Source of the DNA: a virus
IMG/VR virus record: IMGVR_UViG_3300044911_003365
Span: 1-20,946 of that record
DNA length: 20,946 nucleotides
Direction: 5' to 3' (one strand)
The notes under the pieces are model-generated. The model saw only the letters and a list, made by a program, of their open reading frames with translations, was not told the origin of the DNA and did no database searches. The position numbers and the translations under genes are program-made. Shown here piece after piece: positions 1,019-5,585 of the stretch (its first letter is position 1; each line of letters opens with the position of its first letter).

Positions 1019-1166
1019 TATTGCAATGTGTACGGGCAACGAATGCCCTGTCAAGGAAGATTGCTGGCGTTACATGGCGCCCTCTGATCGCTTCCAAAGT
1101 TATTTTGCAACGCCGCCTTGCACGGAAGAGGGCTGTGAGTATTTCTGGGACATGAACGAAAAATAG
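1011..1166 (+). CDS. Cys-rich miniprotein starting at TTG (51 aa)
   Basis: This small frame begins at TTG 1011, preceded by a strong AAAGGAG Shine-Dalgarno at 997-1003 with a 7-base gap. That decides this start over the ATG at 1026. The protein begins MPDIAMCTGNECPVKEDCWR and ends EGCEYFWDMNEK. Five cysteines (CTGNEC, DC, PPC, GC) suggest metal binding or a redox knot. I associate this pattern with a short protein found in many phages, of unknown function. It overlaps the HNH-like gene by 8 bases and its TAG stop shares one base with a GTG of the next frame, so it sits in a translationally coupled string. Confidence 0.75.
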   Translation: MPDIAMCTGNECPVKEDCWRYMAPSDRFQSYFATPPCTEEGCEYFWDMNEK

Positions 1167-1201
1167 TGCCCTGTTACGATCTATGTCTCGACGCCCTTTC
1201 G

Positions 1202-1966
1202 ATGCCTTCTCTCGTCCGCTACGAACCCAATCGGATACAGCTCAACGGCAAGCGGAATTACGTTTTGAACGGTTTTCCAAATGCCCCAGAAGGCATTGTT
1301 TTGCCCTCTGTGACAACTATTGCGAGCGCGTGTTCGCCGCCTGGCAAGATTGCAGCGCTCATGAACTGGCGCAAGAAAGTGGGCAATGAAGAAGCGAATC
1401 GTCGCACACGCTCTGCCGTAGAACGTGGCAACTGGCTCCATGGCGTGCTGGAGGATTTCTGGAATGGCGAGGACATCAACTGCCACCTTGATTCCCATCC
1501 ATCGTTCGTTCCTTATTTCGACAGCATTGCCAACTTTCTAACTAGCGTGGCCAGTCCTTTGTTGGTGGAAAGTGCCATTGCTTGGTATTGCCCCTCCACT
1601 GAAACTGGCTACTCAGGCACGTTTGATATGCTTGCCACAATGGGCAATGGCAATGTTGCTTTGCTTGATTGGAAAACAAGCTTTAAGCAGAAGCCTGATA
1701 CTCAACTAGGCGACTATCGCATGCAGCTTGGCGCCTATGCACAAGCCATTGAGCAGATGTATGGCATTGAAATCAATGAAGCGCATTGTGCTATTGCCAT
1801 TTACGATCCAGACAATGGAGAAGGCCAAGAGGCTCAAATTGTGAGTCTTGACGGCACTGACCTTGCCATGCAGGCAGGGATCATGGCTCAAAAGACTCAA
1901 CAGTATTTCCTTGAGCACTACCCAGGCGGACGCCCCTTAACCATTTCTATGGATAGGGGAGCTTGA
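1202..1966 (+). CDS. PD-(D/E)XK exonuclease, Cas4/RecB-like
   Basis: This is a probable DNA exonuclease for recombination or genome processing. From ATG 1202 it is 254 aa; a GTG at 1166, overlapping the previous stop, would add 12 residues. In that longer numbering the family motifs are: RGNWLHGVLEDFW (H92, E96) for the early His/Glu motif; TGYSGTFD (D154) for the PD-like motif; LLDWKTS (D168, K170) for the (D/E)XK motif; and QLGAYAQA (187-194) for the terminal Q-x-x-x-Y helix of RecB-family nucleases. All metal-binding residues appear intact. It lies just before a small protein with an SSB-like tail and near a second nuclease, suggesting a recombination module. No Cas1/Cas2 or repeat array is present, so a CRISPR role is not implied. 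Confidence 0.85.
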   Translation: MPSLVRYEPNRIQLNGKRNYVLNGFPNAPEGIVLPSVTTIASACSPPGKIAALMNWRKKVGNEEANRRTRSAVERGNWLHGVLEDFWNGEDINCHLDSHPSFVPYFDSIANFLTSVASPLLVESAIAWYCPSTETGYSGTFDMLATMGNGNVALLDWKTSFKQKPDTQLGDYRMQLGAYAQAIEQMYGIEINEAHCAIAIYDPDNGEGQEAQIVSLDGTDLAMQAGIMAQKTQQYFLEHYPGGRPLTISMDRGA

Positions 1967-2363: not shown

Positions 2364-2951
2364 ATGCTTCTCAACGACAAGCAAATTAGCATTCTCGCTG
2401 AAAACGACATCATCTTTCCTTTCACTGGAGAGAAGCGTCGCGAGCTGGACAATGGCACGAAAGCATTGTCTTATGGCCTGTCTCATGCTGGATACGACCT
2501 GCGCCTTTCCCCGGAAGGTTTTATGGTCATCGACAACAGCGTCAGCAAGGACTTCCCTCTTGACGTGAAGGATTTCGACACGGAGCTGATGGAAGAGCAA
2601 AAGCCTCGTCAAGAAAACGGCAGCACGTTTTTCGTACTTCCTCCCTTTTCCTACGCGCTTGGCGTTAGCCTTGAACGCATCTCGATGCCTAACAATGTGA
2701 TGGGCATCACAGACGGGAAGTCAACGTATGCACGTCAAGGAACCATCATTAACGTTACGCCAATTGAGCCTGGCTGGTCTGGCTATCTCACTATTTGTAT
2801 TGTTAATCCCCTGGCTTTTCCAAGCCGCATCTATGCCAATGAAGGGATAGTACAAATTATGTTTATGAAGCTCGATGATGATGTTGCTAGCGCCTATGGC
2901 GATGGCAAATACCAGAATCAGCAAGCTAAAGTGGCCTTTGCTGCTGTATAG
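2364..2951 (+). CDS. dCTP deaminase/dUTPase-family protein with altered active site
   Basis: The 195-aa protein has the Dcd layout: SYGLSHAGYDLRLS (36-49), GKSTYARQG (118-126, nucleotide-binding Ser and Arg), VTPIEPGWSGYLTICIVN (131-148), IYANEGIVQIMF (156-167) and KYQNQQ (182-187). Family members deaminate dCTP to dUTP, or bind or cleave dUTP, to feed thymidylate synthesis; a ThyX gene lies 1 kb downstream. In canonical Dcd the segment after P-G/E-W-x-G reads roughly V-T/L-L-E-F/I-x-N, where Glu (E138 in E. coli) is the catalytic base. Here that position is Cys145 (codon TGT 2796-2798). The enzyme may thus be inactive as a deaminase, or repurposed as a dUTPase or nucleotide-binding regulator. 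There is no clear Shine-Dalgarno; the start follows a hairpin. Confidence 0.85.
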   Translation: MLLNDKQISILAENDIIFPFTGEKRRELDNGTKALSYGLSHAGYDLRLSPEGFMVIDNSVSKDFPLDVKDFDTELMEEQKPRQENGSTFFVLPPFSYALGVSLERISMPNNVMGITDGKSTYARQGTIINVTPIEPGWSGYLTICIVNPLAFPSRIYANEGIVQIMFMKLDDDVASAYGDGKYQNQQAKVAFAAV

Positions 2952-2954
2952 CTT

Positions 2955-3317
2955 GTGAGCGCTCTCGAAGATCAGTTTCTTGGGCTTTGGCAAGCTCACT
3001 ATCCCGACCTTTCATTGATCAGGGAATTCAGCGATGTAGAAGCTTGGGAGGCTGATTTTCAAGAGCGCTACGCCAAAAGCAAACGCTCAAAACGTTACAG
3101 GGCAGATTTTGCACATCTTCCTTCTCGCTCTCTCATTGAAATACAAGGCGGCACTTTTAATCGTGGCCGTCATGTTACTGGCTCTGGCTATGAGCGAGAC
3201 GCCAGGAAATTCAACCTAGCAATGCTATGTGGTTGGAAAGTATTTTTGCTTACTTCCCAAACGGCCAAAGAAATCGCCTGGCTTGAGAAGATTGCTGCTG
3301 TTCTGCGAATGTCTTGA
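2955..3317 (+). CDS. PD-(D/E)XK endonuclease (VRR-NUC/Vsr-like), 120 aa
   Basis: The GTG start is three bases after the preceding stop. The core reads YRADFAHLPSRSLIEIQGGTF (D51, E62, Q64), then GRHVTGSGYERDARKFNLA and GWKVFLLT (93-100). This is the D...ExQ-GGT...GRH...K-N...GW(K/R)V pattern of small phage nucleases related to Vsr/VRR-NUC and resolvase-type folds. The third acidic/basic position is Gln, which I believe is common in this group rather than a defect. It probably cuts structured or damaged DNA during replication or recombination; the substrate is unknown. Its last 68 bases overlap a convergent gene on the other strand, so sense and antisense transcripts would share this end. Confidence 0.75.
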   Translation: MSALEDQFLGLWQAHYPDLSLIREFSDVEAWEADFQERYAKSKRSKRYRADFAHLPSRSLIEIQGGTFNRGRHVTGSGYERDARKFNLAMLCGWKVFLLTSQTAKEIAWLEKIAAVLRMS

Positions 3318-3657: not shown

Positions 3658-3987
3658 ATGCAGCGAAATGGCAGGCAGTTTGTTTACGCAGTGGACGATG
3701 GAAGGAAAGCCGAAAAGCTTGGTACGGCTTCCTTCAGAGCCCTCCCGAAAACACCAGTGTCCCACACTTGGGAAGTTGGGCAAACCGTCGTGTACGTACA
3801 ATGCACAGCCGCCGGTTGGATGCCCACGAGTCTCTTGGGCACCATTGCCGCCATCGTGAAAGACGGAAGACAAACAAAAGCTCGCATCGTTTGGCACGCT
3901 GAAACGAAGGTGGCACTTATCATTGGCTTCCAGAGGCTCCGCCCTTTCCTGCTGGTTCATGACTTCCTCTCCTCTTCAAATCATTGA
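3658..3987 (+). CDS. Hypothetical protein with a beta-rich KOW/SH3-like part (109 aa)
   Basis: ATG 3658 starts a 109-aa frame. The middle (TWEVGQTVVYVQ...GWMP, then LLGTIAAIVKDGRQTKARIV) has the rhythm of short beta-strands around a V-G-x-x-V-x-Y turn, as in KOW or SH3-like folds; this is my reading of the pattern, not a family match. The C-terminal residues are hydrophobic and overlap the start of thyX by 29 bases. There is no obvious Shine-Dalgarno. The 30-base divergent gap from the leftward gene at 3627 is the only room for a promoter. Moderately sure it is real. Confidence 0.55.
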   Translation: MQRNGRQFVYAVDDGRKAEKLGTASFRALPKTPVSHTWEVGQTVVYVQCTAAGWMPTSLLGTIAAIVKDGRQTKARIVWHAETKVALIIGFQRLRPFLLVHDFLSSSNH

Positions 3988-4678
3988 TCCCCTCTGTGAC
4001 GGTATTAGCTTTGTCAGGCTCATTGATTGGATGGGAACTTCGCTTGACATCGTTTGTGATGCGCGGCAAAGTTTCGATCAAGCCTCTTTTCAGTGGACTG
4101 ATCAAGATCAAAAGCTTCTTAACTATTTGGTGAAGCATCAGCACACAAGTCCCTTTAGGGGAGTTGTCACGAAATGGCAAGTGAAAGCTCCGCTATTTAT
4201 TGCTCGTCAATGGTGGAAGCATGTTATTGGTGGCACCTATGCCAATGATCAACTTGGCTGGAACGAAAAAAGCTTCCGCTATTGCGAAGCCGACGACGAC
4301 ACGTATTACATGCCTCGTGAATTTAGGCAGCAAAGCACCAGCAACAAGCAAGCCTCTGCCGGCCCTCTAGAGCCCTCTATGAACCAAGTGGCGATGATCG
4401 AATATGCCAAGGCATTAGAGCAGGTTAAGCAGGCTTATAGGGCTCTTCTGACGCTAGGCGTGAGCAAGGAGCAGGCTCGTGGCATCATGCCAATGAGCAC
4501 ATATACGTCGTTCACTTGGACCTGCAGCTTGCAGGCCCTGCTGCATTTCCTTTCATTGCGCGACAAGCCCGATGCCCAAGGCGAAATCCAATGCTACGCT
4601 CAAGCCCTGAGCACTCTTGCTCGCCCTCTCTTTAAAGAAGTGTTTCAAACATTCGAGGAAAATGGCAATGCCTTTTGA
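3959..4678 (+). CDS. thyX: Flavin-dependent thymidylate synthase
   Basis: ThyX makes dTMP from dUMP using FAD, NADPH and methylenetetrahydrofolate. From ATG 3959 the protein is 239 aa; a start at 3923 would overlap the upstream gene further. Family features: HTSPFRG (62-68); KAPLFIARQWWKH (76-88); LGWNEKSFRY (99-108); and a C-terminal block with EQARGIMP (171-178), YTSFTWTCSLQALLHFLSLR (182-201) and DAQGEIQCYAQAL. The usual ThyX motif RHR-x7-S is changed: KHV replaces RHR, and about 15 rather than 7 residues separate it from S105, with GGTYANDQL seemingly inserted. Known phage ThyX proteins also vary here, so activity is likely but unproven. It overlaps the DUF3310 gene by 11 bases. Confidence 0.9.
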   Translation: MTSSPLQIIDPLCDGISFVRLIDWMGTSLDIVCDARQSFDQASFQWTDQDQKLLNYLVKHQHTSPFRGVVTKWQVKAPLFIARQWWKHVIGGTYANDQLGWNEKSFRYCEADDDTYYMPREFRQQSTSNKQASAGPLEPSMNQVAMIEYAKALEQVKQAYRALLTLGVSKEQARGIMPMSTYTSFTWTCSLQALLHFLSLRDKPDAQGEIQCYAQALSTLARPLFKEVFQTFEENGNAF

Positions 4679-5045
4679 GCAGTCTCCTGAAGCTTTCCAT
4701 CCAGTGGAGCGCCCCATTCATTACGCCAGTGGCGGCTTAGAAGCCATTGAAGCGATGGAAGCAAGCATGACGCCAGAAGCGTTTCGCGGCTTTCTCAAAG
4801 GCAACATTCTGAAATACGTTTGGCGCTACGAAAAGAAGAATGGTCTTGAAGATCTTGAAAAGGCAAAGTGGTATCTTGGTCAGCTCATCTTTGCCCTAGA
4901 AACTGATCAAGAAAGCGAAGCTCTCGCCGCCATTCAAAACAACATTGACAGCGGCTGTAAAGATGGCGTCTGCCCTATTCCTGGCATTCGTTTTGATCTG
5001 CCTCCAAAAGAAGGCGATCTATTCGCGCCAGTAGATAAAGCCTAA
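4668..5045 (+). CDS. DUF3310 family protein (125 aa)
   Basis: I place the start at ATG 4668. The GAGGA at 4655-4659 lies eight bases before it, but only two before the ATG at 4662. Residues 15-75 form the DUF3310 domain: RPIHYASGGLEAIEAM, then FLKGNILKYVWRYEKKNG and DLEKAKWYLGQL. DUF3310 proteins are common in phages beside nucleotide-metabolism genes, and their function is not firmly known. The C-terminal tail includes GCKDGVCPIPG, a short Cys pair. It overlaps the thyX end by 11 bases, indicating coupling. The gene ends 25 bases before a strong hairpin terminator and touches the end of the leftward HNH gene. Confidence 0.85.
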   Translation: MPFEQSPEAFHPVERPIHYASGGLEAIEAMEASMTPEAFRGFLKGNILKYVWRYEKKNGLEDLEKAKWYLGQLIFALETDQESEALAAIQNNIDSGCKDGVCPIPGIRFDLPPKEGDLFAPVDKA

Positions 5046-5524
5046 GCTGCTTGCCATTCCGTATAACAAAAGCCCCCAGAAATGGGGGCTTCTTCTTTTG
5101 ACGGTGGAATGTAATAATCACGCTTCTCAGCAAAAGCTTCAATATCCTGCAATGAAGTGTGGGCACTGACAAAGCTATTGTGATGCACCCACGCCAGTAA
5201 AAGCTGTTCTCGTTTTTCGCTCCAAAACCTTTGTGGGCGCCACCATTCAAAAATAGGCTCCGCTCCTTTTAAGAGATTACAAGACTTACAACTTGGCACT
5301 AAATTATATTTTGCAAAATGAGGCCCGCCTTTGCTTTTAGGCACGATGTGGTCAATAGTTAGCTTCTCATTCCATTGTCCACAATACGCGCAAGCACACT
5401 GTCCAAGCGGGCCTCTTAGCGGATAGTCTTCAAAAATACTCTTGCGAAATCTACGTCTTGCGTCTCCAGGGCGAAGTTCAATGAGAGAGTAAAGCAGCTC
5501 ATCGGGACCATTCGCTCTTGGCAT
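5042..5524 (-). CDS. HNH endonuclease, zinc type
   Basis: From ATG 5524 (minus strand) the product is 160 aa; a TTG at 5566 would add 14 residues without better ribosome-site support. The motifs are classic: CAYCG (C45, C48), then LTIDHIVPKSKGG (D58, H59), NLVP and CKSCNLLKG (C79, C82). The two Cys pairs form a zinc knuckle around the beta-beta-alpha-metal site. All catalytic residues look intact. The gene faces against its neighbours, overlaps the DUF3310 stop by four bases and contains that gene's terminator in its own 3' coding end. Free-standing HNH genes like this may act as homing nucleases, or assist DNA packaging in phages that carry them near terminase genes; no terminase is in view. 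Role uncertain, family clear. Confidence 0.9.
   Translation of the reverse strand: MPRANGPDELLYSLIELRPGDARRRFRKSIFEDYPLRGPLGQCACAYCGQWNEKLTIDHIVPKSKGGPHFAKYNLVPSCKSCNLLKGAEPIFEWWRPQRFWSEKREQLLLAWVHHNSFVSAHTSLQDIEAFAEKRDYYIPPSKEEAPISGGFCYTEWQAA
5070..5100 (+). terminator. Intrinsic terminator after the DUF3310 gene (possibly two-way)
   Basis: An 8-bp perfect stem AAGCCCCC / GGGGGCTT (5070-5077 with 5084-5091) with loop AGAAAT is followed on the + strand by CTTCTTTTG, fitting rho-independent termination of the rightward thyX-DUF3310 transcript. On the minus strand the same hairpin is followed by TTGTTAT, so it may also stop the leftward HNH transcript. It lies inside the last codons of the HNH gene. 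Confidence 0.7.
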
Positions 5525-5585
5525 GGTGCTATTAAATTTTCCTGCAAACAATCTAACCCGCAACAAGCGAATAATGCGCCTTTGC

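Follow-up and report, generated by a model that had tools for sequence, protein, structure and literature searches.

A stretch of viral DNA of 20,946 nucleotides (positions 1 to 20,946 of IMG/VR record IMGVR_UViG_3300044911_003365, hereafter the window) encodes a protein of the dCTP deaminase (Dcd) family in which the catalytic glutamate is replaced by cysteine. The locus raises the question of whether such a protein can still be a deaminase and, if not, what work it does for the phage.

Gene Product and Family Assignment

The ORF encodes 195 amino acids, starts with ATG and reads as given in the preliminary description, which was made from the sequence alone (Table 1). The product matched PF22769 DCD (75.9 bits, cut-off 27) and PHROG 1663 dCTP deaminase, and it passed the family cut-off of TIGR02274 dCTP_deam (113.6 bits, cut-off 92.8). 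The earlier assignment to the Dcd family was borne out by these matches. The cut-offs of the archaeal dUTPase model NF002598 (30.1 bits, cut-off 130) and of the canonical trimeric dUTPase family PF00692 (14 bits, cut-off 22) were not reached. By score the protein lies outside both families, though it may work like those enzymes.

The closest solved structures, by sequence and by predicted fold alike, were the dCTP deaminases of Burkholderia (4dhk) and Anaplasma (3km3), in line with the fold anticipated earlier. The predicted AlphaFold2 fold gave target-normalised TM scores of 0.93 and 0.89 against these two structures, respectively. The model was made from a 20-sequence alignment and has a mean pLDDT of 78, with low confidence from about residue 178 onward. 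4dhk and 3km3, which are YGxS-type bacterial enzymes, and cyanobacterial Dcd, the closest cellular relative, share the GKSTYAR, EPGW, YANEG and KYQxQ motifs with the window protein. They differ from it in having Glu at the catalytic site, Ser-Tyr/Phe at residues 41 and 42 and an aliphatic residue at 117.

Table 1. Features of the Dcd-family gene and its surroundings (positions in the window).
Feature	Position	Strand	Basis
PD-(D/E)XK exonuclease gene, upstream; same order in S-CBS4	1166..1966	+	PHROG/profile matches
Dcd-family gene without the catalytic Glu; probable dUTPase	2364..2951	+	profile matches; predicted fold closest to 4dhk
SHAGYD, residues 40-45; clade marker H/Q41-A42 against Ser41-Tyr/Phe42 of relatives	2481..2498	+	alignment comparison
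D117-G-K-S-T-Y-A-R124, retained nucleotide-site motif; D117 replaces Val/Leu/Ile of relatives	2712..2735	+	alignment
Glu135 codon; position of the catalytic Asp90 of E. coli dUTPase	2766..2768	+	weak profile alignment; invariant in 154 clade rows
Cys145 codon (TGT); position of Glu138 of E. coli Dcd and Ser100 of E. coli dUTPase	2796..2798	+	profile alignment; Cys/Ser/His across the clade
YGDGKYQNQ, residues 178-186, retained C-terminal family motif	2895..2921	+	alignment
120-aa protein gene, PHROG 503 (unknown function), directly downstream of the Dcd-family gene	2955..3317	+	PHROG match
thyX (flavin-dependent thymidylate synthase), constant downstream neighbour	3923..4678	+	PF02511 (134.2 bits); PHROG 85

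The Catalytic Glutamate Site

Cys145 aligned with Glu138 of E. coli K-12 Dcd in a profile alignment and with the equivalent Glu of both 4dhk and 3km3. The E. coli entry 1xs4 has Ala opposite Cys145, and its title identifies it as the E138A mutant. The preliminary description had placed Cys145 at the position of E138, and this placement held in every one of these alignments. E. coli Dcd is inactivated by E138A. No other acid takes over the position in the alignment of the window protein. A neighbouring Glu as stand-in was considered and rejected, GYLTICIVN being ungapped between the invariant G140 and N148 throughout the phage clade described below. By sequence, then, the protein belongs to the Dcd family, and the enzyme label dCTP deaminase fails at the residue that defines it. 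In a weak profile alignment of 39 residues, Ser100 of E. coli dUTPase lay opposite Cys145 and its catalytic Asp90 opposite Glu135.

Distribution Among Phages

Viral contigs were searched with peptide patterns from which the site itself was left out. The 80 related viral loci that were found (76-100% identity) had Cys at the site in 79 cases, Ser in one and Glu in none, so the search for phage homologues suggested earlier turned up the same residue almost throughout. With patterns built on the G-x-S-[H/Q]-A-G-Y-D region alone and a broad GKSTYAR pattern, further new distinct clade sequences were obtained, 23 with His and 7 with Ser at the site and none with Glu. Other phage Dcds from the same searches had Glu (97) or Asp (1). 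Searches that selected Cys or Ser on purpose were left out of these frequencies. The His version is the third at this site (LTMHIANP) and was seen in 23 distinct phage Dcd-like proteins from L341, L344, L357, L371 and about 20 more viral loci; in the tree these formed one sub-branch of the same clade. An 872-aa ORF of another type (L378) has Leu at the site in a Dcd-like segment (SFGLSHAGYD, DKSTWARQG, EPGWIGHPSLLMVNHG), which seems to be joined to a different protein in this long frame.

A maximum-likelihood tree of 98 proteins was constructed without the Glu/Cys site. All non-acid phage proteins formed one group with a support of 100/100. The absence of Glu marks a single fully supported clade of S-CBS4-like cyanophages. 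Across the tree the acid changed state three times: in the phage clade, in an Omnitrophica protein with Ala and in a Goldiibacteriota/Zixibacteria pair with Ser. Within the phage clade Cys, Ser and His interchanged about five times, the site codons being TGT/TGC, TCN/AGY and CAC/CAT.

By simple pairwise counting the dN/dS ratio was 0.035-0.068 between the window gene and its closest relatives, with a median of 0.13 over 1,479 clade pairs. Ratios this low indicate a functional protein. A sequencing error, an assembly artefact or a decaying gene was rejected as the source of Cys145 and has a negligible probability, since the frame is open, selection is strongly purifying, the residue recurs in nearly all of the related viral loci and the isolate S-CBS4 has Ser.

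Other Residues of the Clade

The change is not confined to the catalytic site. H/Q41 is fixed in the clade compared to Ser in 189 of 200 acid-bearing rows. Residue 42 is mostly Ala compared to Tyr/Phe in the acid-bearing relatives, and residue 117 is mostly polar (Asp in the window) compared to Val/Leu/Ile. Pro149 is a further difference from these relatives. Two positions are relaxed: T132 is Thr in 124 of 154 clade rows compared to 199 of 200 acid-bearing rows, and K182 is Lys in 79 of 154 compared to 190 of 200. The 154 clade rows take in the Cys- and Ser-selected searches, which shifts the shares at residue 145 and hardly affects the other columns. Ala42 was also considered as a dUTPase-like motif feature and was dropped, since Ala stands at this position in E. 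coli Dcd as well and is missing from the three Glu-less cellular proteins.

G118-K119-S120, R124, E135, W138, N148, Y178, G181, Y183 and Q184 are kept. S120 (154/154 clade rows) and R124 (153/154) are the equivalents of Ser111 and Arg115 of E. coli Dcd, which we take to be substrate contacts from what is known of that enzyme. Glu135 is also common to nearly all acid-bearing relatives. The nucleotide site thus looks retained in sequence while positions important in the acid-bearing relatives are free or altered, a combination that argues for a changed job and not for a dead protein. The preliminary description had spoken of a single-site loss in an otherwise intact enzyme. That picture has to be given up in view of residues 41, 42, 117, 132 and 182, whereas the changed job it proposed is well supported by the clade-wide change, by purifying selection and by independent losses of Glu elsewhere.

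Continued deamination of dCTP, whether or not dUTP is hydrolysed as well, is rather unlikely; in that case the role of Glu138 would have passed to Cys, His or Ser or to another residue such as the clade-specific H/Q41. Passing the TIGR02274 cut-off, which is an equivalog cut-off, would fit this possibility. So would the limitation of the site to Cys, Ser and His, of which His or Cys might serve as the base, and the switch of residues 41, 42 and 117 along with the site. Against it, Ser is a poor base, and the interchanges within the clade are more in keeping with a position that tolerates exchange than with a catalytic one. The relaxation of T132 and the loss of activity in the E138A mutant of E. 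coli Dcd also count against it.

Cellular Relatives

A first scan of genome contigs that used one sequence as query recovered no relatives. The 80 nearest cellular relatives obtained had Glu (77), Ser (2) or Ala (1) at the site, and Glu was present in all 12 closely alignable Dcds from 14 small cyanobacterial genomes. These two counts do not support the idea that the phage gene was copied from a host gene already without Glu.

The same Glu has been lost, independently of the phage clade, in Dcd-family proteins of Omnitrophica (L265, Ala), Goldiibacteriota (L284, Ser) and Zixibacteria (L312, Ser). A search of the three for a separate PF00692 dUTPase had a negative outcome; compared to 2/6 Glu-type cellular genomes with such a gene, 0/3 Glu-less ones are too few to carry meaning. 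Among 60 cyanobacterial genomes, 58 had a Dcd-family match and 12 a full-length trimeric dUTPase (E <= 6e-23), a count that covers the trimeric family alone. Given these numbers the route of dUTP removal in cyanobacteria is worth attention. Two small cyanobacterial genomes (L507 and L508) encode Dcd-family proteins of 172-177 aa in which Ala replaces the Glu (LDPGWQGHLTMALRN) and the hydrolytic motif has Asp. These were the only Dcd-family matches in their genomes, where no PF00692 match was found, and they are possible bacterial counterparts of the archaeal Dcd-type dUTPases.

Gene Neighbourhood and Nucleotide Genes

Where neighbours could be assigned to a family, they are genes of replication, of nucleotide metabolism or of lysis. 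The thyX ORF has its first start at a TTG (3923), while the ATG at 3959 is the likelier start. A DUF3310 gene also lies downstream of the Dcd-family gene, beyond thyX. Past both is an HNH endonuclease gene (5042-5566, minus strand), and S-CBS4 has HNH genes near the same place.

ThyX was encoded downstream on the same strand in 120 of the 121 clade loci whose flank extended for 2.6 kb or more, at a median distance of about 1.04 kb; in counting, the linkage of the clade to ThyX is one evolutionary event. The corresponding figure for acid-type phage loci was 8 of 82, which may be an underestimate because the ThyX queries were derived from the clade. All 16 near-full clade genomes (15 viral contigs and S-CBS4) encoded ThyX, and none of the 16 had a dCMP deaminase or a separate dUTPase above the family cut-off. 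The weak PF00692 matches in them had the ORF sizes of the Dcd-like protein itself. Three further clade genomes agreed in their ThyX and dUTPase results. With ThyX present and neither a dCMP deaminase nor another dUTPase, the Dcd-like protein is the sole recognised candidate for making dUMP in these genomes. A separate dUTPase was likewise absent from the acid-type phages examined, so its absence does not discriminate between the two types.

These gene contents bear on two other readings. Hydrolysis of another pyrimidine triphosphate (dCTP to dCMP, dTTP or a modified dNTP), tuning the nucleotide pool of the phage, would be consistent with the retained fold and nucleotide-site residues, as specificity is not readable from sequence, and phage-encoded dTTP pyrophosphatases of another family provide a precedent (PMC12697855). 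However, the Glu-less phages have no dCMP deaminase to make use of dCMP, they carry ThyX, which needs dUMP, and the window genes tested included no recognisable base-modification enzyme. This reading is quite improbable.

A protein that binds nucleotides without catalysis, either to regulate ThyX or another partner or as a decoy against a dCTP-depleting host defence, is also unlikely, if slightly less so. The loss of the catalytic Glu would suit it, as would the uncertainty over hydrolysis that comes with Glu135 in place of Asp, and phage dUTPases are known as signalling proteins (PMC5593958). The residues on the phosphate side and Glu135 are nevertheless invariant or nearly so, and the gene, linked to thyX, is part of a cluster for replication and nucleotide metabolism. 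PADLOC gave no match for the Dcd-like protein or three neighbours. The decoy proposed in the preliminary description found no support: besides the PADLOC result, the nucleotide-metabolism cluster is a conserved one and the nucleotide-binding residues are retained.

Comparison With Known Systems

The closest described counterpart is gp073 of phage S-CBS4 (AEX56040.1, annotated deoxycytidine triphosphate deaminase), with 49% identity to the window protein over the full length. S-CBS4 shares its gene order with the window (exonuclease, dcd, thyX, HNH, muramidase). gp073 likewise has no Glu at the site but has Ser where the window protein has Cys, and its function is annotated by name only. The deaminase label came by name transfer, as seen in S-CBS4 gp073, TIGR02274 and PHROG 1663. 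Literature searches found no paper describing a Glu-less phage Dcd variant.

Dcd-family dUTPases without Glu are already known in archaea. The Thermococcus pacificus dUTPase (8y1w, with dUMP) and dUTPase P45 (9ln0, 9ln3) have Dcd-family sequence and fold and Met at the Glu site. These archaeal enzymes are about 155 aa long and have no Lys in the C-terminal YQ motif (in 9ln0, none at the K182 position). They have Asp in the I-D-P-G-W motif where the phage protein has Glu135, and structural-alignment identity to the window protein is only about 26-31%. A Pyrococcus furiosus protein (Q8X251) that carries the dCTP deaminase annotation hydrolyses dUTP efficiently and does not deaminate, according to the statement in PMC5122711 that cites Hogrefe 2002. 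The phage proteins are a variant of the known Glu-less Dcd-family kind and are widely annotated as deaminase.

E. coli Dut belongs to the same superfamily and is likewise without the Glu. The window protein differs from the canonical trimeric dUTPases in having no C-terminal glycine-rich motif. In human dUTPase a change of the catalytic Asp to Asn abolishes activity (PMC4827122). The chief doubt about the phage protein concerns its Glu135, where dUTPases and the archaeal Dcd-family dUTPases have Asp, so that hydrolysis is not assured. Since Glu135 is shared with nearly all acid-type relatives, the clade may descend from a pure deaminase.

Proposed Function

The archaeal precedent and the partnership with ThyX make dUTP hydrolysis the best reading. 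Of the three jobs put forward earlier (dUTPase only, nucleotide-binding regulator, decoy for dCTP), the first is the best supported by the comparison with archaeal enzymes and by the ThyX linkage, and the decoy gained no positive support. The clade protein would be a Dcd-fold enzyme that has lost dCTP deamination and hydrolyses dUTP to dUMP and pyrophosphate, with E135 as the putative water-activating residue. The dUMP would be supplied to the phage ThyX for conversion to dTMP, and removal of dUTP would keep uracil out of the phage DNA. We give about an even chance to the clade protein being a dUTPase, no longer a deaminase, that feeds dUMP to ThyX.

A rationale for the site can be proposed. 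The Glu carboxylate would be a hydrogen-bond acceptor facing the amino group of cytosine, and Cys, Ser and His would be possible donors facing O4 of uracil. Exchange of acceptor for donor at site 145 would then shift the preferred base from cytosine to uracil. The three residues accepted at the site could all donate a hydrogen bond, and the site may accordingly take part in selecting the base. Against the dUTPase reading stand the missed cut-offs of NF002598 and PF00692, and also the narrowness of this set compared to the Met, Ser or Ala of Glu-less proteins elsewhere, a hint that the residue has a particular task. A bolder and improbable version is that Cys/Ser/His for Glu138 together with H/Q41, A42 and a polar residue 117 makes the clade a phage-specific Dcd subfamily with a new catalytic arrangement, for either acid-free deamination or a switch from cytosine to uracil by acceptor/donor exchange.

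Implications

Inferences about the nucleotide metabolism and the auxiliary metabolic genes of phages draw on automatic names of this sort, and dCTP deaminase is likely the wrong name in many genomes. The clade offers a natural experiment on one position that separates deaminase from hydrolase in the dUTPase superfamily, and Cys, Ser, His, Ala, Met and Glu versions of the site are now to hand for assay. If dUMP is made from dUTP and not from dCTP, the stated thymidylate route in S-CBS4-like cyanophages would be wrong and these phages would depend on dUTP from the host Dcd.
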